NCBI GenBank assembly: GCA_017829075.1
Contig: JAGAJA010000091.1
Coordinates: 1 to 56,405, forward strand
DNA: 56,405 nucleotides
Source: Oscillospiraceae bacterium
GTDB taxonomy: Bacteria > Bacillota_A > Clostridia > Oscillospirales > Ruminococcaceae
Direction: 5' to 3'
Shown here: in pieces, positions 5,431-17,741 of the stretch
How the letters are laid out: every line of letters begins with the position of its first letter
Position numbering within the stretch: the stretch's first letter is position 1
Notes under the pieces: generated by a model
The model's input: only the letters and a program-made list of their open reading frames with translations
Database searches by the model: none
Told to the model about the DNA's origin: nothing
Position numbers and translations under genes: made by a program

Positions 5431-5459
5431 TTGAAAAAACACTTTAAGTGTGATATAAT
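5431..5459 (+). promoter_or_regulatory. Promoter of the 5.6-15.2 kb cassette
   Basis: TTGAAA (5431-5436), exactly 17 bases, TATAAT (5454-5459). It is the only strong promoter seen before the ten-gene same-strand cassette. The roughly 140-base leader before the ATG at 5608 is A/T-rich, with no obvious attenuator. Confidence 0.75.
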
Positions 5460-5607
5460 AAACATAAATCATTTATTATTCCAAACAACTTGTATTTTCT
5501 CTTTCAGTGAACCCCGTACATATCGGCATTTTTATATTATTTCTCTTGCGGACATGATATAAAAAACTGCAAAATACATAATTTGCTTGCGAAAGGAATT
5601 GGTTCTA

Positions 5608-8532
5608 ATGACAAAAAAGCAATCTCAAGTCATGTCGCAGGATACTATAACAAATTTGCTGAATGAGGTCAGATCTATCGGAACTGAAGCCCCGGTTTTG
5701 CTGCCTGTCAAAGATTGCTCTTTCAACGAGAGAAACATTTGTTTCTACAAGGTTGAAAAGCTTTCCTATGACGAAAAGTACCCCATGAGGGAGGCTTTCG
5801 AAAACATTCTGATGAACCTGGACGACGCCTCTTTCAACCTTATCTATATCATTGATGGCGACATCAGCGGAATATCTGTCTACATCGGCATAGCTAAAGC
5901 CGGAACGTCCAATTCAAAATTTTCAGCAGGAAATTTCGGTGATATAATATGCAAGTCTTTTGAAAGCAACTATAATGGCAGCGTACTCAGACGAGTGACA
6001 AACGACAATGGTCAGCTGAGCAGCACAATACTTGGATCAACTGAAAAATTCAGGAATTTCGGATGCATCGTAGGCGTACCAGGAACAAAAGAAAATGAAC
6101 CGCACGAAAACATTGATTTTCAGGGTATAGACAGGCTCATAAATACCATGTTGGGAAGCGTATGGAGAATGATGGTGGTATGCGAGCCCGTCCCGAAAAG
6201 CGAGATATCAGGTCTACAGGATCAGGTTTTCGATCTGTACAACCGCCTCAGCACATATTCCAGATCCTCTTTGCAGCAAAGCATAAATTACGGCGAAAGC
6301 AATTCTAGTAACACCAGTTTCTCCGATACACGCGGAAAAAATATCGGCGTCAACAAAAGCCAAACGAACAATAAGGGAGAATCCAACAGCAGCGGCACTA
6401 AAAATTCCGGAACTTCAGATACAAAGGGAGCGCAGAAAGGTATCTCATTCAGCAGTACATACAGTACCGCCGCCACGGAAGGTACCTCAAAGGGCACTTC
6501 TTCCGCAGTGACCGTAGAGATTACAAATAAGTATGCTTCGGAAATCATGAAGTATATCGACGATGAGCTGATACCTCGTCTGAATACAGGATTCACAAGG
6601 GGAATGTACCGCACCTCGATTTCATACATGGCAGCAAATCCCGCTGATGCGATCAAGCTGAAAGCCGGTATCATGTCGCTTTTCCGCGGAGAGGCTTCAT
6701 CGTTCAGTACGCTGGCGACCGTTCCGATAGAGATACCCAAGGATGCAGAGCGTAGCAGCTTTCTGAACTGTTTCACAAGCAGAAAATGCATAAGAGGAAG
6801 CCAGAATAATGACCCGTATATTCTGAACTGCCGCCCGGTTTCTGACAATAACGCTCTGTTAAGCACCTACCTTACTCCGAAAGAGGTAAGCGTGATAGCA
6901 GCGCTTCCCCAGAAGGAAGTACCCGGACTCGCTCTGCGTGAGAGCGTTGAATTCGGGCTTAATGAAAAAGACCCAGGCAATGACCGCATCACTCTCGGCC
7001 ACATTATGCAGCGCGGAAGAAAGTTGGACATTCCCTTTGAGCTTGACCGGAAGTCGCTCAGCAAGCACACTTTTGTCGCAGGAGTGACCGGAAGCGGAAA
7101 AACAACGACCTGCCACAGGCTTCTTCACGAAGCCGGACTTCCTTTCCTTGTGATAGAGCCTGCGAAAACGGAATACCGCGCCCTGCTGACGTCCGAGGAT
7201 TTTAAGGATGTCACTGTCTTTACGCTCGGAAACGAATCTGCCGCGCCATTCCGATTCAATCCGTTTGAACTGGTTGAAGGAGAACTGCTCAGCGCTCACA
7301 TAGATATGATGAAAGCCGCATTCACCTCTTCATTCCCGATGGAAGCCTCAATGCCGCAGCTGCTTGAAGAAGCGATAATCAGATGCTATGAGAAAAAAGG
7401 CTGGGTCATCGGTCAGAATCTCAACACAAGATACCGAACTCCTGATGATATCGCACTGCACAGGGACGAAGCATACCCGATCCTTTCCGAGCTTCTGACT
7501 GTAATGAATGAAGTCGTTGGAGAAAAGCACTTCGGGAACGAACTGAAAAGCAACTACATAGGCTCCCTTGTCAGCAGGCTGTCTAACCTCACCGTCGGCT
7601 CGAAAGGAAACATGCTCGACTGCGGATGTTCGGTAGATTTCAACTATCTGCTTCATCATAACACCATAATCGAAATGGACGAGATGAAATCTCCGGAGGA
7701 CAAATCTCTTATAATGGGCTTCCTCCTGATGAGATTGTGCGCGGCAGTAAGAAACGAGCACAGGAAAGATCCCGGCTTCAGGCACATCACGCTTGTCGAA
7801 GAAGCGCACAGACTCCTCTCGCGCCCTGATTTCGGCGATGGAGGCGCAAGGAAAGCCGCCGTAGAAACCTTCACCGATATGCTTGCAGAAGTGCGCAAAT
7901 ACGGAGAGGGACTCGTTATTGCAGACCAGATCCCGAATAAGCTCGCTCCGGAGGTGCTGAAAAACACCAACACAAAAATCATTCACAAACTCCTCGCGCG
8001 CGATGATAAAGACGCAGTCGGCGACACTATGCTCATGAACGACAAGCAGAAAGAATACCTGTCGGCTCTACTGACTGGTCAGGCAGTTGTTTTCTCAGAA
8101 AACACCGAAAAGCCCGTACACATCTCCATTGACAGACTGACAGATACCAACGCCGCAGAAGTAGATGATGCTACTGTGCACCAAGCGTTCATCAGAATCA
8201 GGGATCATCTCGGCAACTGTTATGATGATATAAAATACGACGAAGCCGTGATTCCGTTTTCTATAATAATCGCTCACATTAAAAACGGCTTCAAAGGAGG
8301 TCAAGCGGAAGAAGCACTTGAGTCGTTCAGCCGTTTTGTTACCGTGAAAGGCATTGATGCCGGAGAGTGCACAGCGTCGCTGCTGCTTTCCCACTATCGA
8401 AAAACCGGAAAGAGCATGTCGGACGATCCCGAAGCCATAGCCGGGAATATAAAAAAGGTCTGCGCTTATATCGAAAGCTGCATTAAGCAAAAAGCAATAA
8501 TCCCTGACGCGGGAATCATAAAATACATATAA
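5608..8532 (+). CDS. HerA/DUF87-type ATPase with low-complexity insert
   Basis: A 974-aa protein. I use the ATG at 5608, nine bases after aaagga, rather than the in-frame TTG at 5587. Residues about 220-300 form a Ser/Thr/Asn/Gly-rich low-complexity stretch (for example SNTSFSDTRGKNIGVNKSQT) between an N-terminal domain and the motor. The P-loop GVTGSGKTTT is at about 492-500, followed by LVIEPAKTEYR. The Walker B LVEEAHRLL is at about 728-736, and IADQIPNKLAPEVLKNTNTK follows with the sensor region typical of HerA/DUF87/VirB4-like translocases. Such hexameric ATPases pump DNA or polypeptides. The C-terminal 120 residues are helical. It is the first gene of the cassette, so it is likely its motor. 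The substrate is unknown. Confidence 0.85.
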   Translation: MTKKQSQVMSQDTITNLLNEVRSIGTEAPVLLPVKDCSFNERNICFYKVEKLSYDEKYPMREAFENILMNLDDASFNLIYIIDGDISGISVYIGIAKAGTSNSKFSAGNFGDIICKSFESNYNGSVLRRVTNDNGQLSSTILGSTEKFRNFGCIVGVPGTKENEPHENIDFQGIDRLINTMLGSVWRMMVVCEPVPKSEISGLQDQVFDLYNRLSTYSRSSLQQSINYGESNSSNTSFSDTRGKNIGVNKSQTNNKGESNSSGTKNSGTSDTKGAQKGISFSSTYSTAATEGTSKGTSSAVTVEITNKYASEIMKYIDDELIPRLNTGFTRGMYRTSISYMAANPADAIKLKAGIMSLFRGEASSFSTLATVPIEIPKDAERSSFLNCFTSRKCIRGSQNNDPYILNCRPVSDNNALLSTYLTPKEVSVIAALPQKEVPGLALRESVEFGLNEKDPGNDRITLGHIMQRGRKLDIPFELDRKSLSKHTFVAGVTGSGKTTTCHRLLHEAGLPFLVIEPAKTEYRALLTSEDFKDVTVFTLGNESAAPFRFNPFELVEGELLSAHIDMMKAAFTSSFPMEASMPQLLEEAIIRCYEKKGWVIGQNLNTRYRTPDDIALHRDEAYPILSELLTVMNEVVGEKHFGNELKSNYIGSLVSRLSNLTVGSKGNMLDCGCSVDFNYLLHHNTIIEMDEMKSPEDKSLIMGFLLMRLCAAVRNEHRKDPGFRHITLVEEAHRLLSRPDFGDGGARKAAVETFTDMLAEVRKYGEGLVIADQIPNKLAPEVLKNTNTKIIHKLLARDDKDAVGDTMLMNDKQKEYLSALLTGQAVVFSENTEKPVHISIDRLTDTNAAEVDDATVHQAFIRIRDHLGNCYDDIKYDEAVIPFSIIIAHIKNGFKGGQAEEALESFSRFVTVKGIDAGECTASLLLSHYRKTGKSMSDDPEAIAGNIKKVCAYIESCIKQKAIIPDAGIIKYI

Positions 8533-8549
8533 CACAGGAGGACGAAAAC

Positions 8550-9152
8550 ATGATTGGAGCAATAATAGGCACTGTAGTAGGCGTTATCAGCACAGTGGCA
8601 AAATCCCTGGCAGTCGCCGGCCTTGCCATCAGCGGACTTAAAGCGATCGTTGGCGTGCTTGTCAACATTGCAAAAGCGCTGGGACTGGTGGAAGAGCCCA
8701 AACCGGAAGTGGCAGAAAAAGCCCTTCAGGCGGAAGAAGAAGGAATCACGCCTGAAAAATTTGACACCTATGACGAATACATGAACGCCATAGACAAATT
8801 TGAAATTGATCCGGAAAAGAAACATTCGGAAGATGAACTTCTGCAGAAACAGGCGGAAATACTTTCGGGATATATTCTGGAAAAGTCCCCTGACATGCCA
8901 ATTGAAACCATGGCAAATGCGGTCAGCGCAAATCCCGGATACCTCACCCCGGAGCGAATGACTGAAATAGGAAAGTTGATCGGCAATGATCCCGCCAAGG
9001 CCGAAAGTGTGTTCGGACTTCTCAACGGGACCGAGAAAAACACCGAAAGGATCGGCAATGCTGAAGAGCTCCTGATACAGGCAGAGCAGGCTCTGAATCC
9101 CGGTATGTCAGCAAATGACGCGCTTATCCGGGTGTATAATAACAGAACATGA
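8550..9152 (+). CDS. Small protein with hydrophobic Gly-rich N-terminus
   Basis: A 200-aa protein beginning MIGAIIGTVVGVISTVAKSL and continuing AVAGLAISGLKAIVGVLVNI, about 45 residues of Gly/Ala/Val/Ile-rich sequence that could form one or two membrane helices or an amphipathic pore-like hairpin. After this the chain is acidic and helical (EEPKPEVAEKALQAEEEG), with no known motif. The ribosome site is caggagg. It begins 18 bases after the ATPase stop and precedes the 154-aa gene by 22 bases, so it is in the same operon. It could be a membrane anchor or a membrane-active effector, but no family was recognised. Confidence 0.7.
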   Translation: MIGAIIGTVVGVISTVAKSLAVAGLAISGLKAIVGVLVNIAKALGLVEEPKPEVAEKALQAEEEGITPEKFDTYDEYMNAIDKFEIDPEKKHSEDELLQKQAEILSGYILEKSPDMPIETMANAVSANPGYLTPERMTEIGKLIGNDPAKAESVFGLLNGTEKNTERIGNAEELLIQAEQALNPGMSANDALIRVYNNRT

Positions 9153-9173
9153 ATCTGAATTGGAGGAAACAAA

Positions 9174-9638
9174 ATGGTTGATCTGCTGCTTGTAGCCACT
9201 CCAGAAAACATATTCACCTATGAGGTGAAAAACGGCAAATATGAACTGATTAATGTACAGGGCGCTTCCGGATTTCCTTATGACCGACGCAGCCCGCAAA
9301 AGTACATATCAGACTATCTCAGCGCTATCAGGAACGAATTCGGATACGACAGCCTTGCAACATTTAATATCAAGGTCACATTCCCGGACGATTCGGTGGA
9401 ACATAATTTTATGCGTGCTATAACCGAGAAAATTGAAGCGGTCGAAGTGAGCATGGACGCCCTTGCCACTAAAATATTCAATGTGCTGAAAAAGGACAAA
9501 GCGCTGAAAATCAGCGACTACGGCGCAAATATCGGATTATATTGTATTCGGCAGGACGGCAGTTCAATATTCAAGTCGCCTTTCAGCCTGCTCGCATATA
9601 CAGTGAAATTTGACGAATTTGGTCGTTATCTTGGATAA
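9174..9638 (+). CDS. Hypothetical protein (154 aa)
   Basis: A 154-aa protein with a strong ribosome site, ttggagg. The pattern LLLVATPENIFTYEVKNGKY, then short strand-turn segments and two helices around residues 60-105, suggests a small alpha/beta domain. No signal peptide, cysteine cluster or nucleotide motif is visible and no family was recognised. It sits between the hydrophobic protein and the GTPase. The stop TAA lies inside the aaaggag ribosome site of the GTPase gene, so translation of the two is probably coupled. Confidence 0.65.
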   Translation: MVDLLLVATPENIFTYEVKNGKYELINVQGASGFPYDRRSPQKYISDYLSAIRNEFGYDSLATFNIKVTFPDDSVEHNFMRAITEKIEAVEVSMDALATKIFNVLKKDKALKISDYGANIGLYCIRQDGSSIFKSPFSLLAYTVKFDEFGRYLG

Positions 9639-9651
9639 AGGAGAAACAGAC

Positions 9652-11184
9652 ATGGATATGAAAACCTGTTCCAGTTGTGGAGCTGCATTACAAAAAAACA
9701 GATACTTCTGTCCTGAATGTGGCGCACTAATAAATAAAGAACAATATCAAAATACAGAAGCCGCCGAAGAAATCGAGTTTAAAACCAAGCGAATACACAA
9801 AAATATTTCAATGGTTCCTCACCCCAGCATAGAATGGAACCAGAGCGCTGACGCTTACGCAGCCCAAATGGAAAAATTCCGCGCACTGCTCAGACTGAAG
9901 AACTTCGGTGAAAATGCTGATCAGAAATTAAAGGACAAGATGGATCTGTTCATCAGAACGTGCCGCAATCCCGAATTTCAGATAGCGTTCGTCGGAACAA
10001 TAAAAACCGGAAAATCCACGCTGATAAACGCGCTTCTCGGACACAACTATGCCTCAATGGCGGTCACTCCGGAAACAGCGGCACTGACGCGCTTCCGCAG
10101 CAGCGACAGGGACTATGTGAAAGTAACGTTCTATTCCACAAAGGAATGGACTCAGCTCTGGAAGTCCATCTCCTCAGGCGCTGATAAATTCATGGAAGAG
10201 TATAATCGTCTGAACGCAGACTCAGTCAAGAAGCAGTGGGTTGACCACGAATCCGTGAAGAAGTTCCTCAAAAATGAAGAAATCGAATCTGAGCTCTCTA
10301 TCTGGTCCTCATCAAAACACCCGGAACACTATTTTGTAAAGGAGATCGAAGTCGGTATTTCAACACTGCCGAAGGATTTTCCGAAGCAGGTCGTTTTCGT
10401 GGATACTCCGGGACTGTCCGACCCGGTAGGATATCGTTCCGATATTACCAAGCGCTACATAAAGCGTGCGAACGCCGTTTTCGTATGCGTCGAAGCCAAA
10501 AAGCTCAACAAAGAGGAGGTCGATACGATATCATCAGTATTCTCGATATCCTCCCACAACAAAGAAAAGGTGTATGTCATCGGCACTCACTGGGACAAGC
10601 TGAACAACCCGCTCAAAGACTGGCCTGACGCGAAGTCATTCATGATGGAACAGCTCACCGGCAAAGGATTTTACGACACCAGGGAAATAGCAGAAACTCA
10701 CCTTATCCATTCATCTGCATACCAGCATATCCTCTGCCGCGATTATAACGATAACGACATGGACGCCACACGTCAGCTGATGATGTTTGCGCTCTCCCTG
10801 GGACTGAATTTTCAGGATATCAGGTCCTGTATTCCTAAGATGATGGAATACGCCAACATCGGAACTATAAGTTCTATCGTCAACGGAGATCTTGTCAGAA
10901 ACTACGCTGAATATATGCTCGGCGATATAGCTGCAAATTACAGGTCGATATGCAGCGACCTGAAACGCTACGCCGAAGTAACCAGGGAATCTGCTGAAAG
11001 TATAATTTCCGCGGCAGACGCCGACATGGACGAGCTCCAGAGTAAACTACAGGAAGCGGAGGACAGGTGCAAAACGATACAGGCGAACAAGGAAGCCCTC
11101 AATGCGGCGCTCAAATCGATCAGCAAACAATCGCAGGCACGCCTTGCCAAAATGATGAAGTCCCTTGACGGCATAGTCAAATGA
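9652..11184 (+). CDS. Zinc-ribbon dynamin-like GTPase
   Basis: A 510-aa protein. The ATG at 9652 follows aaaggag with 8-base spacing. An N-terminal zinc ribbon has Cys6/Cys9 and Cys20/Cys23 (CSSC and CPEC). The GTPase domain has G1 GTIKTGKST at about 115-123, a switch threonine region around VTPETAAL, G3 DTPG at 251-254 and G4-like THWD at 312-315. This order and the GKSTLINALLG context match the dynamin/YdjA-like superfamily, which acts on membranes. The C-terminal 130 residues are predicted coiled coil (DELQSKLQEAEDRCKTIQAN), as in bacterial dynamin-like proteins. The stop overlaps the start of the LpxD-like gene by four bases, a tight functional coupling. Confidence 0.85.
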   Translation: MDMKTCSSCGAALQKNRYFCPECGALINKEQYQNTEAAEEIEFKTKRIHKNISMVPHPSIEWNQSADAYAAQMEKFRALLRLKNFGENADQKLKDKMDLFIRTCRNPEFQIAFVGTIKTGKSTLINALLGHNYASMAVTPETAALTRFRSSDRDYVKVTFYSTKEWTQLWKSISSGADKFMEEYNRLNADSVKKQWVDHESVKKFLKNEEIESELSIWSSSKHPEHYFVKEIEVGISTLPKDFPKQVVFVDTPGLSDPVGYRSDITKRYIKRANAVFVCVEAKKLNKEEVDTISSVFSISSHNKEKVYVIGTHWDKLNNPLKDWPDAKSFMMEQLTGKGFYDTREIAETHLIHSSAYQHILCRDYNDNDMDATRQLMMFALSLGLNFQDIRSCIPKMMEYANIGTISSIVNGDLVRNYAEYMLGDIAANYRSICSDLKRYAEVTRESAESIISAADADMDELQSKLQEAEDRCKTIQANKEALNAALKSISKQSQARLAKMMKSLDGIVK

Positions 11185-12116
11185 TGACATCAGGAAAACT
11201 GGCTGAGCTGTCGGGATACATCCTGTCAGGCGACCCCGAAATCGAAATCTGTGGAATATGTTATGCATACGCTCCACAGCCGGGCAAGGCAGCCGTTGCA
11301 ATGACCACAAAGCAAGCCAAGGAAACTGAATCAGACCTTATTCTGACAGAAGGCACGCCACTGAGTTTCGGCAAGAACTTTCTTTATGCGGATGACAACA
11401 TTAATATGGCGCTCGTAAAAGTAGCAAAGATACTCGCAGCTCAGGGAACATGCATAAACCATCTGAAACGTTCCGACGATCTTGTGATGTCAGGCGGGGC
11501 AATGATAAGTTCAGGTGCCACTATCGGGAATAATACGACTATAGGAGCGTTCACAGTGATACACACCGGTGCGGTGATCGGCAGCAGCTGCCATATAGGA
11601 AACAATGTGACGATTGGCAGCGATACGATAATCGGTGACAACACCACCATTGGCGATGGCTCCAGAATATCCACTGACAGCGTATTCCATTATTACGATG
11701 ACGGCTACGTCCATTTCCCCGGAATCGGCAAAACGATCATCGGTGCAAACGTGTTTATCGGCAGCAATGCAGTCATTCAGCGCGGAACTATTCAAGATAC
11801 GATAATCTCTGACGGATGCGTTGTCGGCGACCTTGTTGACATTGGGCATGACTGCGAGATAAGCGAAAACTGCCGGATTGTATCGCAATGCGGAATATCC
11901 GGAAATGTCCGTATCGGCAGGAACTCCGTTATTTTTGGTCAGAGCGGAATTCAGAATTTTGTCAGGATAGGAGAGAATGTCGTTGTTAAAGGCAAGACTT
12001 CAATTCCTAAGGATATACCTGACGGAATGACAGTGTCAGGACAATTTGGCAGAAGCAACATTGAAGAACTAAGGTTACAATCTGAGATAAGAAAACTATT
12101 TAACGAAAGGAAATGA
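11181..12116 (+). CDS. LpxD-like hexapeptide-repeat acyltransferase
   Basis: A 311-aa protein. The N-terminal 100 residues resemble the uridine-binding-like domain of LpxD. From about residue 105 there are many hexapeptide repeats (GNNTTIGAFTVIHTGAVIG, then IGNNVTIGSDTIIGD and others) that form a left-handed beta-helix. The motif IGHDC with His223 aligns with the catalytic histidine of LpxD. LpxD transfers a hydroxyacyl chain from ACP to an amino sugar during lipid A synthesis, which a Gram-positive host would not make, so the acceptor here must be different (another amino sugar or an amine). The start overlaps the GTPase stop. The C-terminus IEELRLQSEIRKLFNER is a short helix as in LpxD. Confidence 0.8.
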   Translation: MMTSGKLAELSGYILSGDPEIEICGICYAYAPQPGKAAVAMTTKQAKETESDLILTEGTPLSFGKNFLYADDNINMALVKVAKILAAQGTCINHLKRSDDLVMSGGAMISSGATIGNNTTIGAFTVIHTGAVIGSSCHIGNNVTIGSDTIIGDNTTIGDGSRISTDSVFHYYDDGYVHFPGIGKTIIGANVFIGSNAVIQRGTIQDTIISDGCVVGDLVDIGHDCEISENCRIVSQCGISGNVRIGRNSVIFGQSGIQNFVRIGENVVVKGKTSIPKDIPDGMTVSGQFGRSNIEELRLQSEIRKLFNERK

Positions 12117-12120
12117 TAAT

Positions 12121-12837
12121 ATGGGTGGCGGATGCGGCAACTGCGATAATCATCCGATAAGGGACTTTTTCAGGAGTATTTTTGGAGGTGGAAGAAGCGG
12201 CGGTGGATGCGGTTATACGCCTGGTCCATCGGAAAACGAGATTCATGCCAAGAAAATAGCCGGCGAACTTGAGGATATGAAAACCAAAATGCGCGAATCT
12301 TCAGAGAAAGCAGAATCCGTTATTGCTGATGATCTTATGGAATCAGCTAACTATTTTCTCAAAGAACTGGAACAGATTAATTATAAATCTTTCGGAACTG
12401 TCAAGCTTAAACTGAATATTGAAGAAATCAACAAGCAGAACCAAAAGCTTAAAGATTCCATAAAAGGAACGATTGCCGATCATATGGACGAACGACTAAT
12501 CCTGACCGACAAGGAACTTTCAGCTATACTTGAGGAACGCGATGATAAAAAGCGTGCCAAAAATTTTGACTCATTCTGCAAGAAAACGCAGAATGAATCC
12601 ATAGAAAAACTCAAAGCAAAAATCAAAAAGCTTGTGGAAGATCAAAACGAACTCATATCCAGTGAAATTCGTGCACGAATAACGGAAGTAGAAAAAAGCT
12701 CAAAAGAAACGCTTGACAATCTCGCCAAGATAACTGGAATAAAGCAGGCAGGCGACGACAAGGCAGAGTCTGAGAAACTGGACGCAGAGTACAAACATGA
12801 AATATGCGCTATAACCAACGATCTTATAAACACCTGA
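12121..12837 (+). CDS. Gly/Cys-rich N-terminus plus coiled-coil protein
   Basis: A 238-aa protein starting MGGGCGNCDNHPIRDFFRSI, followed by FGGGRSGGGCGYTPGP. The two Gly/Cys-rich patches are separated by an aromatic basic helix. From residue 40 to the end the chain is almost entirely charged helix (EIHAKKIAGELEDMKTKMRE and LKAKIKKLVEDQNELISSEI), a long coiled coil. It starts four bases after the LpxD-like gene stop behind aaagga. The glycine/cysteine head could bind metal, be lipid-modified or be a substrate of the SPASM enzyme at the end of the operon; this is inference. No family recognised. Confidence 0.75.
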   Translation: MGGGCGNCDNHPIRDFFRSIFGGGRSGGGCGYTPGPSENEIHAKKIAGELEDMKTKMRESSEKAESVIADDLMESANYFLKELEQINYKSFGTVKLKLNIEEINKQNQKLKDSIKGTIADHMDERLILTDKELSAILEERDDKKRAKNFDSFCKKTQNESIEKLKAKIKKLVEDQNELISSEIRARITEVEKSSKETLDNLAKITGIKQAGDDKAESEKLDAEYKHEICAITNDLINT

Positions 12838-12856
12838 CCTAGGAAAGGAGGATGCT

Positions 12857-13421
12857 ATGGGCGGATATTATGTCGGAGATTATAATCAACAAAGCAAGCA
12901 AGCGTTACAGGCTGAATCTGCAAAGAACACCTTTATTTCTTCTGTGGAAAAAGCAGAAAATGAACTATACAAATCAGCTGTCACAATATCGTACAAAACA
13001 AAAAGTGATATTGAAACGCTCGTTGGATTATTTCCAATCACTTTCTGCGTATGTTTCTATACGGATAGATGAATCAAATGACGCGTCAAATCAGTATATA
13101 CACAACGAAAGCGAGGAAGGAAACGAAGGAACAATTGCAAACTGTCGTGACATATGGAACACTTACTATGCGGAAATAAAAACGCACATCCAGCAAAAGC
13201 TCTTAAGACTTCTTGATGAACAAACATACTATTTCAGGTGCGCAATAATGGAAGAAATCAAGCGTCTGGAATATAAAGGATCTGCGGTCAAAGTCGACAT
13301 ACAGGGTATATCTTTATTTCATGATCCGCAATACTGGGACAGCATGTATCTGTATGATATTTGCCAGATAGCAGATAGTGAATGTGAACGTTCTTTTTTG
13401 CCAGGAGGATATTATGTATAA
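12857..13421 (+). pseudogene. Frameshifted Gly-start coiled-coil protein
   Basis: Ribosome site aaaggagg and ATG at 12857 open MGGYYVGDYNQQSKQALQAE, which reads in frame to KTKSDIETL near base 13020 and then meets TGA at 13069. In the +1 frame the sequence continues smoothly as DYFQSLSAYVSIRIDESNDA to a stop at 13421. The 3' end lies over the ribosome site of the next gene. A single-base change near 13020-13035 joins the two halves into a protein of about 188 aa of coiled-coil type, resembling its neighbours. It may be a sequencing or assembly indel, a real mutation, or less likely a programmed shift, as no classical slippery site is seen. Confidence 0.65.
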
Positions 13422-13884
13422 AAGAACAGCCGAAAGAATAGAAGATCTGCGACAGCAGATGGAAATGGAACATACTGATTTTACAGCTGCGTTGCAGCAA
13501 CTTCATAGCCAGACATCGGTTATCAGCGAGAGTATAAACAGGCTTTCCCAGAGCATAACGGAAATAATAGAAAACAGCGTCAGGACCTCTGAGGAGCTTT
13601 CTCACAAAATAGATTTGCTTGATGAAAGATTAGAAAAGCTGATGGAAAGCGAAGCATCCACATCTGCAAAGATGCAGAAAAACGCCAAAACAATGAAAGA
13701 CGCTCTAAATACCGTGAGTGAAACGGTAGCGGCAGTAAATTCAACCTCAGCCGAAACGGTTGACAAACTCACTGCGATGTGCACGGAAATGATCGCGGAA
13801 TACAGACGTGCGGTAAACGAATCAATCAGTCTGCTGATGACAGATGACCTGGTGAGAAAAATTCCCGGGAAGGAAAATAAATAA
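13414..13884 (+). CDS. Coiled-coil protein (156 aa)
   Basis: A 156-aa protein starting MYKRTAERIEDLRQQMEMEH at the ATG behind aggagg. It is nearly all heptad-like helix: SVISESINRLSQSITEIIEN, then KIDLLDERLEKLMESEAS and repeated T/S-A-x-x motifs like the cytoplasmic part of chemoreceptors. It has no cysteine-rich or hydrophobic segment. The start overlaps the previous frame's stop and its TAA overlaps the ATG of the 46-aa gene (taatg). Likely a structural or adaptor component of the cassette; function unknown. Confidence 0.72.
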   Translation: MYKRTAERIEDLRQQMEMEHTDFTAALQQLHSQTSVISESINRLSQSITEIIENSVRTSEELSHKIDLLDERLEKLMESEASTSAKMQKNAKTMKDALNTVSETVAAVNSTSAETVDKLTAMCTEMIAEYRRAVNESISLLMTDDLVRKIPGKENK

Positions 13885-14024
13885 TGGATATTCTTATTTC
13901 CGGAAACGACAGCATAATTAAAATCATAGCTTTACCGCTTGAACAATTTTCTGGTCTACCGGAGGATGTTTTAAAACAGATTGCGGATATAATGACCCGG
14001 GAGGATACAGCCGGTGAAGTATAA
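13884..14024 (+). CDS. 46-aa protein upstream of radical SAM enzyme
   Basis: A short frame: MDILISGNDSIIKIIALPLE, then QFSGLPEDVLKQIADIMTRE and DTAGEV. The start overlaps the previous stop and the end overlaps the radical SAM gene by 11 bases, so translational coupling is strong. Size and position fit a precursor peptide of a modified-peptide (RiPP) pathway, but it has no cysteine and no known leader motif, so a small scaffold or chaperone protein is equally possible. Confidence 0.5.
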   Translation: MDILISGNDSIIKIIALPLEQFSGLPEDVLKQIADIMTREDTAGEV

Positions 14025-15237
14025 ATGCTCTTTCTACAATATATGTGCTGATGGACAGGGGTGTCATATAATTTACAACACGCTGTACAATACTCTGGTG
14101 AGAATGAACGACAGAGAATACAAGATTTTCACATCGGAAAACGACATGGACCCCGAATTGACTGAGCAGCTTGTTGAAAATGGATTATGGGTGAATAATG
14201 AAATCGATGAACAAAAGCAGTATATATCACTCGCCGCTATGCTCCGCCAGGCAAACAAGCATGATTATTCATTAACAATAACTACGACTATGCAGTGCAA
14301 TGCCAGATGTCCATATTGCTATGAATCCGGCGTAGCCAAGCGGACTATGCTTCCGGAAACAGAAGAAAAGCTGTATTCATTTATACGCAGACTGGACGTT
14401 CATGACAGTATACAGCTGACATGGCTCGGCGGAGAACCGCTGATGAATACGGAACTTATAGACCATGTATCAGATCTCTTGTCAGAACGCGGAATTAAAT
14501 ATTCTTCATATGTAATAACAAACGGCAGCCTTTTAAACAGCGACATTATTGCAAAAATGAAGAATAAGTGGAATACTCATGACGTGCAGATAACACTTGA
14601 CGGAATTGGTGACGAATACGACAGGATAAAGCAATACACCGATGGTAAAAAGTACTTTTTTGAAATACTTGACTCAGTTGACAAACTGTGTGAAGCTGGA
14701 ATATTCACTCATGTCCGCCTGAACATCGGCAGAAACAATATAGAAAGCTGTGTCACGCTTTCAGAAATGCTTGAGAAGAAATTCGAAAAATATACTGATT
14801 TCTGCTACTATCCGGCGTTTCTTGCCGGAACAGGCAATCCGCTCTCGGATGATGAAAGATTGGACATAGTACGTCGCCTTATATCTGCCAGAACAACAGT
14901 CAGTAAATTGACAGTCACAAGAAGGCTTCATTCAACACCCAAGATTCGTCCATGTATGATCAACGACCCATGCAGTATGGCGATAGACGTGAACGGCGAT
15001 ATATTTGAGTGCGAACATTTTCTCGGCAATCGTGAAAAATCCATCGGGAGTCTTGAACAAAATGTTACGACGATAAACCGAAAAGACCTTGAGCTTAAAG
15101 AGGAATGTCAGAATTGCAAGTTTCTCCCCAAATGCATGGGCGGATGCAGTTCTGAAAGAAACAACGGCGATAAGGGCTGTATGATTGACCGATATCTTAT
15201 TCAGGCGTATTTAAAGACCTTATCCGGAGAGTTATAA
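14014..15237 (+). CDS. Radical SAM/SPASM maturase
   Basis: A 407-aa enzyme with a GTG start behind gggagg. The radical SAM cluster motif CNARCPYC has Cys95, Cys99 and Cys102. LTWLGGEPLM follows, which is the SAM-binding GGEP. The C-terminal SPASM domain shows CSMAIDVNGDIFECEHFLGN and then CQNCKFLPKCMGGC, the cysteine pattern that binds auxiliary [4Fe-4S] clusters. Enzymes of this group (AnSME, PqqE, thioether-forming maturases) modify protein or peptide side chains. The N-terminal 80 residues look like the small PqqD-like or adaptor region of peptide maturases. The candidate substrate is one of the cassette proteins. A terminator follows at 15280. Confidence 0.88.
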   Translation: MKYKCSFYNICADGQGCHIIYNTLYNTLVRMNDREYKIFTSENDMDPELTEQLVENGLWVNNEIDEQKQYISLAAMLRQANKHDYSLTITTTMQCNARCPYCYESGVAKRTMLPETEEKLYSFIRRLDVHDSIQLTWLGGEPLMNTELIDHVSDLLSERGIKYSSYVITNGSLLNSDIIAKMKNKWNTHDVQITLDGIGDEYDRIKQYTDGKKYFFEILDSVDKLCEAGIFTHVRLNIGRNNIESCVTLSEMLEKKFEKYTDFCYYPAFLAGTGNPLSDDERLDIVRRLISARTTVSKLTVTRRLHSTPKIRPCMINDPCSMAIDVNGDIFECEHFLGNREKSIGSLEQNVTTINRKDLELKEECQNCKFLPKCMGGCSSERNNGDKGCMIDRYLIQAYLKTLSGEL

Positions 15238-15279
15238 TTATAAGTATCGTTGATAGGATTCCCTAATAAATATAAAAAT

Positions 15280-15312
15280 GCTGCAAGCGCATAATGTACT
15301 TGCAGCGTTTTT
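15280..15312 (+). terminator. Terminator of the cassette
   Basis: gctgcaag, an 11-base loop, cttgcagc, then gttttt. It lies 43 bases after the radical SAM stop and closes the operon that began at 5431. Confidence 0.8.
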
Positions 15313-15406
15313 ACGTCCAAAAGTTATGAATCGGCATGAGAAAAAGGCTTTGGTACACTGCTATATCAAAACAGTATCATTATTGACACAGTATACATCT
15401 GACTGC

Positions 15407-15435
15407 TTGACACCAATACTGATTAGTGATAGAAT
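15407..15435 (+). promoter_or_regulatory. Promoter for the helicase-HNH gene
   Basis: TTGACA (15407-15412), 17 bases, TAGAAT (15430-15435), then a gcgagg ribosome site and the ATG at 15469. This separates the helicase unit from the preceding cassette. Confidence 0.65.
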
Positions 15436-15468: not shown

Positions 15469-17741
15469 ATGGCAACTCTGACTGATACGATTGAAGTAAG
15501 CTCCAGCGGAAAAGTGATTCCACAAGCGGGAACAAATCCGCGGCTCCCATATGAGCACCAGAAAAAGGCGATGGAATCCCTTGATATTCTCGACCGGGAG
15601 CGTTCTTACAGCACTCTGGTCGTACTCCCGACAGGCGGTGGAAAGACCTACACGGCTTCAATGTGGCTGCTGAAAAATGCTATCGACAAGAAAAAGAAGA
15701 TTCTCTGGATAGCGCACCGACAAATGTTGCTGGATCAAGCCGCGGAATCGTTCAAGAGGTTCGCTTATACAGAAGTGATACCGCACGTTTCTTCGTTCTG
15801 TTTCCGTATAGTTTCGGGAGCTTCAAGTCATGACCGCACCTGCGATATCCGTCCCGGCGATAATCTGCTGATAGTCAGCAAGGACAGCATCGGCCGCAAT
15901 ATCGAGCGCCTTGACGAGTGGCTGAACGGAGAACAGGAGCTGTTCCTGATAATTGATGAGGCGCACCATTCCACTGCAAAAACATATCGCCGCATAATCG
16001 ACTATCTCAAGGAAAAGGTGCCGTTCCTGAAGCTGATAGGGTTGACCGCAACTCCGTTCCGCACAGCTGAAAACGAGCAGGGACTGCTTGCAAAAATTTA
16101 CACCGATGGAGTAAAGGATGGACGCGCGGTGCACGGCGATGTTGGCATTGCTTACGACATAGGTCTGAATAACTGATAAATCGCCATATCCTCGCAAAGC
16201 CAGTTTTCGAGAGCTTCTATACTGACGAGGACTACGGAAGCAGCCTCGGTCTTGACGCATGGGAAAGCATTCAGCACCTCGATATCCTGCCAGATGATAT
16301 AGCCCAGCAGATGGCTTACAGCACCGCCCGAAACAAACTGATAGTTCAGACCTACAAGGACCATCAGGAGGAATACGGAAAAACTATTGTATTTGCTGTA
16401 AATGTGGTTCACGCAATTCAACTTGCGGAACTTTTCAATAAAGCAGGTATAGCTGCTGATTATATCGTATCATCTGTTAAAGATATAGTAACCGGAGTAA
16501 GTATAAACGATAAACCCAACGATGATAAGATAGAAGCCTATAAATCAGATGACAGAAATAAAGATAGAATTGATGTATTGATAAATGTAAATATGTTGAC
16601 CGAGGGAATAGATCTGCCGCAGACCAGGACAGTATTTCTTGCGCGCCCCACAGTATCTACGATACTGATGACCCAGATGGTCGGAAGAGCGCTGCGCGGA
16701 CCGGCTGCCGGAGGTACTTCCAGCGCATACATAGTGTCGTTCATCGATCACTGGAACGAACACATTGCGTGGGTAAATCCGGAAAGCCTATTCGATGGAA
16801 ACAACGATTTCACCGAGAACGAAACCGAGCGTGCCAAGCGCGATATCCGCATGATTTCCATATCCAAGATAGAGGAGTTCGCTTCCATACTTGACGATAC
16901 AGTTGATACCTCCTCGTTGGAAAAGGTGCCGTTTGAAAAGCGCATTCCGGTGGGAATGTACGCATTCAGCGTCATGGAGAAAAACGGCATGGACGGCAGT
17001 TATCAGGTGATGGTTTACGACAGCACTCAGGCCGCGTATGAGGAACTGATGAAGTCGCTTCCGGCGCTGTTCAGAAGCTTTGGCACTGACGAGGAATACC
17101 TTGTCGATGAACAGCTTGACGAAATGGAACAGCAGTGCCACGATACGTTCTTCTGCGGTGAGATGATACCATCCTATGAGAAAAAGGACGTTATCAATAT
17201 ACTGAAATTCTATGCGCAGAACGATGCTGCACCGTCGTTCTATACCTTTGATGAAGTAGACAGAAGCAAGCTTGATGTCGGGAAAATAGCAAAGCACATC
17301 TGGGACGAGGATATGGGGCAGCGCAAGAAGTCCGAGTATATCGACTCCCTGTGGGAATCCGGCGATGAAAATATGCTGAGCCTGTTCTTCGGCAGGAAGC
17401 TGTATTTCCTGCGGCAGCTTGATATTGAGCTTATGAAGCTTTCAGACCCGCATATTTACGATGAGCCGGTAGTTCACGAATCACGCAGGCTGGAGGATCT
17501 GCCGCTTTCTGAAATAGGCAGGATAGACCCGGCGCTTGAAAGTGAACTTCGTGACGGCGCATTTGAAAAATCCCGCGACAGTGATGGCTGTTACTGCTGC
17601 GCTGAGTGCGGCGTTCGCGATACATCGAGGGTATATTTCCAGGTTGACCACATCATTCCGATGAACAAGGGCGGCAAGTCCAGACCGGAGAATCTTCAGA
17701 TACTCTGCCGCAGCTGCAATGCCAGAAAGAGCGACAAATGA
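15469..17741 (+). pseudogene. DEAH helicase-HNH endonuclease, frameshifted
   Basis: Two frames make one gene of about 757 codons. The first (15469-16176) has the P-loop PTGGGKT at about residues 54-60, DEAH at 163-166 and the TATPFRTAE motif III, ending at TGA after IGLNN. The -1 frame resumes at 16173 as LINRHILAKPVFESFYTDED, then IVFAVNVVHA and the motif VI region TQMVGRALRGPA, and ends with an HNH nuclease (CCAECGVRDTS, then QVDHIIPMNKGG and CRSCNARK). Helicase-nuclease fusions of this type are typical of phage-defence and repair islands. The lesion is a single-base indel near 16140-16175. The gene may be inactive unless this is a sequencing error. Confidence 0.8.

Follow-up and report, generated by a model that had tools for sequence, protein, structure and literature searches.

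The cassette and its surroundings

The DNA analyzed here, referred to throughout as the window, is the whole stretch of 56,405 nucleotides from positions 1 to 56,405 of contig JAGAJA010000091.1 from an Oscillospiraceae bacterium (GenBank assembly GCA_017829075.1), and its subject is a compact gene cassette located at positions 5431-15312. Within this region lie ten plus-strand open reading frames (ORFs), and according to the ORF list neighboring frames either overlap or are separated by gaps of less than 25 bases. The genes are designated A to I, with a separate frame for a 46-residue peptide positioned between H and I. An earlier note, prepared from the sequence alone, had described a tightly packed unit of ten genes on a single strand with its own promoter and terminator. 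The ORFs, a promoter-like site with 11 of 12 matches, and a hairpin are indeed all found there, and the count of ten holds in part: nine ORFs are intact, G is frame-broken, and the 46-residue ORF is fused to I in relatives. The domain calls of that note were borne out by matches to DUF87/HerA for A, a zinc ribbon and dynamin for D, an LpxD-like hexapeptide protein for E, and radical S-adenosylmethionine (SAM) for I, with the correction that the predicted structure of A, which does match DUF87/HerA, lies closest to VirB4. The features are listed in Table 1.

Table 1. Features of the cassette in window coordinates
Feature	Position	Strand	Basis or remark
Promoter-like site	5431-5459	+	TTGAAA-17-TATAAT, 11/12 matches, with TG; top site of scanned stretch
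A, 974-residue VirB4/HerA-type motor ATPase with Ser/Gly/Asn-rich linker	5608-8532	+	Pfam DUF87; AlphaFold2 (AF2) model
B, 200 residues, hydrophobic Gly/Ala-rich N-terminus, usual partner of A	8550-9152	+	ORF, locus comparison
C, 154 residues, no family above cut-off	9174-9638	+	Pfam; present in 21/21 type-1 loci
D, zinc ribbon and dynamin-like GTPase	about 9652-11184	+	Pfam Dynamin_N 61 bits; alignment A5
E, LpxD-like hexapeptide acyltransferase	11181-12116	+	NCBIfam, alignment
F, Gly/Cys head on long-helix body, proposed substrate of I	12121-12837	+	Alignment, predicted structure
G, extra protein with F-like MGG start, frame-broken	12857-13421	+	ORFs, relatives
H, coiled coil	13411-13884	+	Coiled-coil matches only
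46-residue peptide, MDILISGN...	13884-14024	+	Separate ORF, conserved
I, radical SAM/SPASM enzyme, nearest to maturases of ribosomally synthesized and post-translationally modified peptides (RiPPs)	14014-15237	+	Pfam, NCBIfam
Hairpin terminator	15273-15313	+	-21.4 kcal/mol, z -5.7

The start of A was placed at the ATG at 5608, and there is also an in-frame TTG at 5587. For D, the query sequences corresponded to positions 9646-11181. No Pfam or NCBIfam family above cut-off was observed for B, C, F, or G. A scan of the sequence yielded 30 promoter-like sites as compared to 18.6 in shuffles, and thus it is only by its strength and its position that the site at 5431-5459 is supported. The T run of the hairpin at 15273-15313 is paired within the stem, which is presumably why a separate terminator scan did not list it. 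The frame in which G starts stops at 13072, with a frame change near 13030 and the remainder of the gene lying in another frame. This broken ORF recurs at 98% identity in P0243, which is represented by four contigs, and hence it is not the slip of one assembly. Other relatives of G include a shorter in-frame form (P0244) and two intact proteins of 210 and 211 residues with an MGGGCYVGDY head (P0245 and P0246). Directly downstream of the cassette, at 15469-17741, is a ResIII/DEAD helicase with a C-terminal HNH domain; it is split into two frames near 16170 and is preceded by a second promoter-like site with 11 of 12 matches at 15407.

Recurrence of the gene order and the D-F module

A 34-row alignment of A led to 52 loci from GTDB species genomes, which together with four annotated plasmid loci and the window constitute a set of 57. 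In this set A is present by selection, and genes were assigned by profile scores above 60 bits. In 21 of the 57 loci, the window among them, genes A-B-C-D-E-F follow one another in the same order and on one strand (21/21), and I is present in 19. Apart from the window there are thus 20 such loci, referred to as type 1, with I in 18 of them. Two type-1 pairs, L005/L023 and L017/L034, are more than 90% alike in A. The earlier note had held that the genes belong together and had proposed looking in unrelated genomes for a conserved order of the ATPase, GTPase, LpxD-like, and SPASM genes. Such synteny was found: all 21 A loci that bear D are type 1, and the SPASM gene I is present in 19 of them. 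Neither of the outcomes that the note had named as contrary to its claim, a set unique to the window or genes drawn from separate known operon types, was observed. Because of the synteny in 20 other loci, chance proximity was rejected.

Given that the loci had been selected by A, a separate search was run with F. All 12 strong matches (at least 297 bits) in the order of genome G010 are flanked by E and I, although these are partly the same loci, and all 12 carry heads with adjacent cysteine pairs (CC). The type-1 hosts include Lachnospiraceae, Selenomonadaceae/Selenomonadales, Eubacteriaceae/Eubacterium, one Treponema, one UBP6, and the isolate Mitsuokella jalaludinii, and they represent at least two phyla. 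The distribution is patchy. With query genomes counted, F was detected at E<=1e-8 in 17 of 189, 2 of 392, 2 of 247, and 1 of 100 genomes in four taxon samples, and D at E<=1e-50 in 3 of 391 and 2 of 249. Twelve of the 17 F-bearing genomes in the sample of 189 have full-strength matches, and the others represent cut contigs, fragments, or hydrophobic-headed relatives. A survey of neighboring genes of at least 150 residues, covering 18 of the 21 type-1 loci, revealed mixed company, with restriction or CRISPR-like genes only at L018 (MmeI-type), L021, and L020, the last two recognized by eye. By sequence comparison, then, the cassette is a recurrent one, and its genes travel together. That no system with this set was known had also been asserted in the note, and searches of the open-access literature for such gene combinations returned no description of one, the only paper obtained being a review on membrane stress. 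Within that literature the cassette is undescribed as a set; its parts are of known kinds, and their combination is new as far as the searches show.

A second group of 21 loci, type 2, contains A, with B in 18, together with a gene P, whose product has about 940 residues, and mostly also Q and R. None of C, D, E, F, or I was found in these 21 loci at more than 60 bits. The remaining 15 loci have A, with B in 12, and neither set; L049 carries R alone, and some of the contigs end early. Since B accompanies A in 51 of the 57 loci, A-B is a wider module.

D and F likewise occur in a different context. In L082, L083/L084 (which are alike), L085, L104, and L105, D is accompanied by one to three F-like proteins, but the fetched stretch lacks A, B, C, E, and I, and a search of plasmids with D revealed a D-F pair on a large plasmid of [Eubacterium] eligens (L098). 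The D model scores 273-403 bits in L082-L085, L098, and L104, with D split into two ORFs in L105, and the F-like proteins, that of L105 apart, score 16-62 bits with the F model. Their heads are hydrophobic or amphipathic, as exemplified by MGFFGDLWDIAKSAAAIAVG in L083. Locus L086 is intermediate: besides D, E, and I it encodes a coiled coil and two F proteins, one starting with a hydrophobic stretch and the other bearing CC pairs, with no A-B-C in the 16 kb fetched. On the basis of these gene comparisons, D-F is a module of its own.

The neighbors of the D-F module are of interest with respect to function. In L098 the order is a WYL regulator, a BnzB-like protein (73.9 bits), the dynamin, the F-like protein, and IS256. 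The same order is observed in L105 (BnzB-like, 91.2 bits), and in L104 a patatin (92 bits) occupies that slot. The WYL regulators by the D-F genes of L098, L104, and L105 belong to one family with those found within about 6 kb of type-1 loci L005, L020, L023, L043, and L051, and they are 31-62% identical, the L005/L023 pair apart. These WYL, BnzB-like, and patatin neighbors lend indirect support to a defence role.

The head of F and its pairing with enzyme I

The most telling point of the analysis is the tie between the Gly/Cys-headed protein F and the radical enzyme I, a tie that the earlier note had not made. The homologs of F are 226-277 residues in length and consist of a head followed by a long-helix body of approximately 200 conserved residues. 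Among the 120 homologs listed, of 239 found, all but one (119) carry a CC pair in the head, and 118 start with MG. In 111 distinct heads, 236 of the 272 CC pairs fit the pattern CC[VI]x[DN], as compared to a mean of 1.3 and a maximum of 6 in shuffles, a control that ignores the kinship of the heads. Successive CC pairs are most commonly spaced by five residues. Overall, cysteine accounts for 747 of 5861 residues in the heads versus 213 of 22984 in the bodies. The head of the window F, residues 1-36, is predicted with low confidence, and a fold search with F produced no PDB match at E<=0.001.

In 19 of the 21 type-1 loci I is found with a Cys-bearing head, of the CC kind in 18 and with three single cysteines in the window, and both are likewise present in L086, L090, and L092. 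The two other type-1 loci, the near-copies L005/L023, retain A through F without I, and the head of their F, MGMIADTIGCIGAIAGGV, has one cysteine and no CC. In six further locus groups, those of the D-F module (L082, L083/L084, L085, L098, L104, and L105), every head is hydrophobic and the fetched stretch lacks I. When genomes were searched with I, scores of 369-685 bits were obtained in all five with a Cys-headed F (G002, G003, G781, G092, and G113), and scores of 123 bits or less in all eight without one (G001, G009, G075, G129, G130, G231, G962, and G1190). I was unmatched in the L098 plasmid record, the search being of the plasmid alone. In a tree of the F bodies, L005/L023 fall inside a supported Cys-headed clade, which indicates that the Cys head and I went together there. 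Note that L015 was scored as non-Cys in the tree only by way of an ORF start placed too far upstream; the alignment and the L059 contig show a Cys head. The count excludes contigs that are truncated at F (L069/L088) as well as fragments of F (L073/L087). As judged from the sequences of the assessable loci, a Cys-headed F occurs with I, and a hydrophobic or amphipathic head occurs where I is absent.

The enzyme itself has the CxxxCxxC motif and the cysteines of a SPASM region: Cys 95, Cys 99, Cys 102, Cys 314, Cys 333, Cys 365, Cys 368, Cys 374, Cys 378, and Cys 389 are invariant in 19 of 19 rows. The families that score best are the geopeptide, CefB (Cys-every-fifth), and TIGR04463 maturases, with PapB lower. 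I reaches the cut-off of no named maturase family, the scores against cut-offs being 151.1/400 for TIGR04280 (the best), 139/600 for CefB, 135/525 for TIGR04463, and 104/340 for PapB. It also matches PDB chain 5wgg, which we take to be CteB. Encoded beside I is a Cys-rich candidate substrate, F, whose CC[VI]x[DN] pattern is a CX3[DN] repeat, and PMC9413430 describes PapB as forming bonds between the Cys and the Asp or Glu of CX3D/E repeats. I thus resembles the ranthipeptide and sactipeptide maturases, which are its best matches, and CX3[DN] repeats adjoin it. It differs from them in that its scores lie far below their cut-offs and its putative substrate, a coiled-coil protein of about 240 residues, would be modified at its N-terminal head and has no leader-core layout. 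Indeed, no short precursor consisting of a leader and then a core was found, the Cys part standing at the start of the 226-277-residue proteins. By analogy, I probably cross-links the head of F in the manner of a ranthipeptide or sactipeptide maturase.

The 46-residue ORF is separate in L008, L009, L013, L020, L032, L051, and the window, and in these seven it encodes no cysteine. In Selenomonadaceae, in Treponema L019, and in L043 it is instead joined by fusion to the N-terminus of I. On the basis of its conservation and this fusion it was taken to be part of the enzyme, and because of the fusion its reading as a RiPP precursor was rejected.

With respect to E, His 223 is invariant in 22 of 22 rows and aligns with the histidine of the LVQIAHNV stretch of LpxD, which we take to be catalytic. 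E thus shares a fold family and one conserved histidine with LpxD and falls below the LpxD cut-offs (167.9/207 and 163.1/242.5). To our knowledge the Lachnospiraceae, which are among the hosts, make no lipid A. In L018, L021, and L092 the E protein is 515-567 residues long with an F-like domain fused at its C-terminus.

A 17-residue LEELLRLxAANQxM-like motif was recognized in proteins of these operons. In a scan that included its own seeds (2 of the 16 being one residue off the protein), 28 of 1030 genes scored at least 21.7, all in loci that contain D-F, the next score being 15.6 and the shuffled maximum 16.8. The loci are L005, L008, L009, L011, L012, L015-L021, L023, L027, L034, L044, L082-L084, and L086. 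The carriers are otherwise unlike one another, being coiled coils, Sel1-repeat proteins, and an SCP2 protein, and H-type coiled coils of relatives end in the motif, which looks like a shared docking helix. A Sel1-repeat protein beside the D-F module of L083 (L083:622-2667) ends in a phosphopantetheine domain (PF00550) resembling acyl carrier protein and is possibly lipid-linked.

A putative membrane machine and its relation to known systems

The sequences show a VirB4/HerA-type motor in A, a dynamin-like GTPase in D, and a retained LpxD-type histidine in E. Relatives of A number 673 among 7991 scored candidates. Its AF2 model (predicted local distance difference test score of 72.8, predicted template modeling score of 0.52) has a VirB4-type ATPase fold and is closest to VirB4. 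A possible EccE-like N-terminal domain of A was absent from the VIA list. We consider it about an even chance that the products of the cassette form a single modular machine that acts on membranes, with a conflict system of the anti-phage or envelope-stress kind as its likeliest identity. The membrane or conflict role suggested in the earlier note is backed indirectly, through the WYL, BnzB-like, and patatin genes near relatives.

The steps by which such a machine might operate can be envisioned as follows, in order of falling confidence. I, together with the 46-residue peptide, would apply radical chemistry to the head of F, giving rise to Cys thioether cross-links within the CC[VI]x[DN] repeats. 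The finished head would then behave like the hydrophobic heads found elsewhere, that is, it would insert into or bind the membrane. F and H-type coiled coils may bring the dynamin D to the membrane or control it there, and E may acylate F or a lipid partner, as the fusion of E to an F-like domain in some Selenomonadaceae might suggest. At that site the A-B(-C) motor would move B, another protein, or nucleic acid. Finally, upon a trigger, the machine would remodel, break, or seal the membrane, and the phage would be stopped. Stated in its full form, our tentative proposal, which we regard as possible rather than probable, is that a RiPP-type enzyme repeatedly cross-links the head of a large structural coiled-coil protein, and so converts it into an anchor or pore element that enters the membrane and serves a dynamin and a VirB4-like motor within an undescribed defence machine, with a plain hydrophobic helix serving where the enzyme is missing.

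A number of observations weigh against this interpretation. The head of the window F contains three single cysteines and no CC, although I is intact, and F, with some 240 residues and its Cys part at the very start, is unlike the usual RiPP precursors. The fifth place of the repeat is Asn in 143 cases and Asp in 93, whereas PapB, according to PMC9413430, acts on Asp/Glu; because Asn is commoner the bond may differ, being sactipeptide-like or other. The link between head and enzyme reflects few independent events, in that the tree requires four label changes, or three after correction of L015, and the tree has long branches that were flagged by the tree tool. The F-like proteins of L085, L098, and L104 reach only 18-38 bits, and that of L105, not above 12 bits, was placed by its 30% identity to that of L098. 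No gene of that one WYL family occurs anywhere in the window, and the window H has no motif match among the 60 best listed. Many type-1 loci lie, as seen by eye, amid housekeeping-looking genes. A and F were unmatched in viral contigs and D in phages, and on these grounds a phage element was rejected.

Those housekeeping-looking surroundings would also suit an envelope-stress or envelope-maintenance system with no conflict role, as would the action on membranes or lipids that is common to dynamin, LpxD-like, SCP2, and patatin proteins. The sparse, patchy distribution and the WYL and BnzB-like neighbors of the D-F module argue against such a system, and we regard it as doubtful, albeit plausible. 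Alternatively, the VirB4-like A-B pair might serve in secretion or peptide export, with B or F as its cargo and with I and E decorating the exported peptide or lipoprotein, to yield a bacteriocin-like product and not a defence. This is unlikely: no transporter, peptidase, or other type IV secretion system (T4SS) domain was seen in a domain scan of the nine cassette proteins (signal peptides were not tested), F retains its conserved body of about 200 residues and has no cleavable leader, and D-F exists without A-B.

The remaining alternative concerns the head itself, whose cysteines could form a metal or iron-sulfur site or be S-acylated, with I acting elsewhere, for example on the 46-residue peptide or on H. 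Eukaryotic MGxCC starts are S-acylated, and the CC pairs at an MG start in 118 of 120 F homologs listed resemble acylation sites; moreover, E is LpxD-like, and the 46-residue ORF overlaps I. The peptide, however, lacks cysteine in the seven loci where it is a separate ORF, and in Selenomonadaceae it belongs to the enzyme itself. In addition, E is kept in L005/L023 though the CC head is gone, and thus the head cysteines go with I and not with E. We judge this explanation improbable.

If the cross-linking proposal is correct, chemistry familiar from small peptides would serve, inside the cell, to make the membrane-directed end of a protein linked to a dynamin. Radical SAM RiPP enzymes would then have a wider purpose and bacterial dynamins a defined set of partners, and a large modular conflict system would be added to those of gut bacteria. 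The proposal also gives a testable role to the large orphan family of VirB4/HerA ATPases to which A and its relatives belong. Like the combination of genes, the pairing of a RiPP-type enzyme with the head of a coiled-coil protein that accompanies a dynamin is new as far as the searches show.

Of known systems, Type III-A CoCoNuT resembles A-B in having, according to its description, a FtsK/HerA-superfamily ATPase with a VirB4-like motor and a small helical protein, and in one relative, L002, the A-B pair is immediately preceded by a DUF2357 gene. Judging from the descriptions, A and the CoCoNuT ATPase may be of one family. No McrB-like GTPase, DUF2357, or VWA domain was found in the nine cassette and ten flanking proteins, and the text on CoCoNuT mentions neither dynamin nor radical SAM. 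D resembles LeoABC and DynA in being a bacterial dynamin that is accompanied by helical proteins, and DynA confers phage resistance in Bacillus, as stated in PMC8844932; D scores 42.6/325 with the LeoA/HP0731 model and 22/1600 bits with that of DynA. Bunzi, listed with a TerB domain in PMC10952713, is paralleled by the BnzB-like proteins between the WYL and D-F genes of L098 and L105 only, and no BnzB or TerB match was found among the nine proteins of the cassette. The motor part of A matches PADLOC mad8 (MADS) with 71 bits and HerA with up to 58 bits, for which no cut-offs are given. Against the NCBIfam anti-phage HerA, A scores 45.8/800 bits, and the nine cassette proteins include no Sir2 or DUF4297 partner. 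By the respective tests, membership in HerA defence, LeoABC, CoCoNuT, Bunzi, LpxD, or a named maturase family was rejected. A general domain scan of the nine cassette and ten flanking proteins revealed no further T4SS genes or relaxase, and a conjugation element was rejected for want of a T4SS set there.

The type-2 operons and other relatives of A display further arrangements. The P protein is about 900-1030 residues long and is paired with A-B plus families Q and R in L001, L036, L041, L042, L045, L046, L050, L052, L054, and L055. No Pfam model above cut-off was observed in the P rows tested, one row scoring 29.5 versus 34.9 with Lcl_C. From motifs recognized by eye, we presume P to be Hsp70-like. 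Besides its type-1 cassette, genome G010 has a second, diverged A-B (L089) beside a P fragment at a contig end and a large protein that weakly resembles dynamins (33 bits, D model). On an Escherichia coli plasmid (L004:4743-13142), two dynamins, a hypothetical protein, and an A relative are followed by HNH/ENDO VII and SMI1 genes, and Exiguobacterium L003 has ATPase, HNH, and SMI1 genes too. A protein-kinase-like gene, identified by eye, lies upstream of A on the same strand in L013 and L032, and another is positioned near the D-F module of L083.

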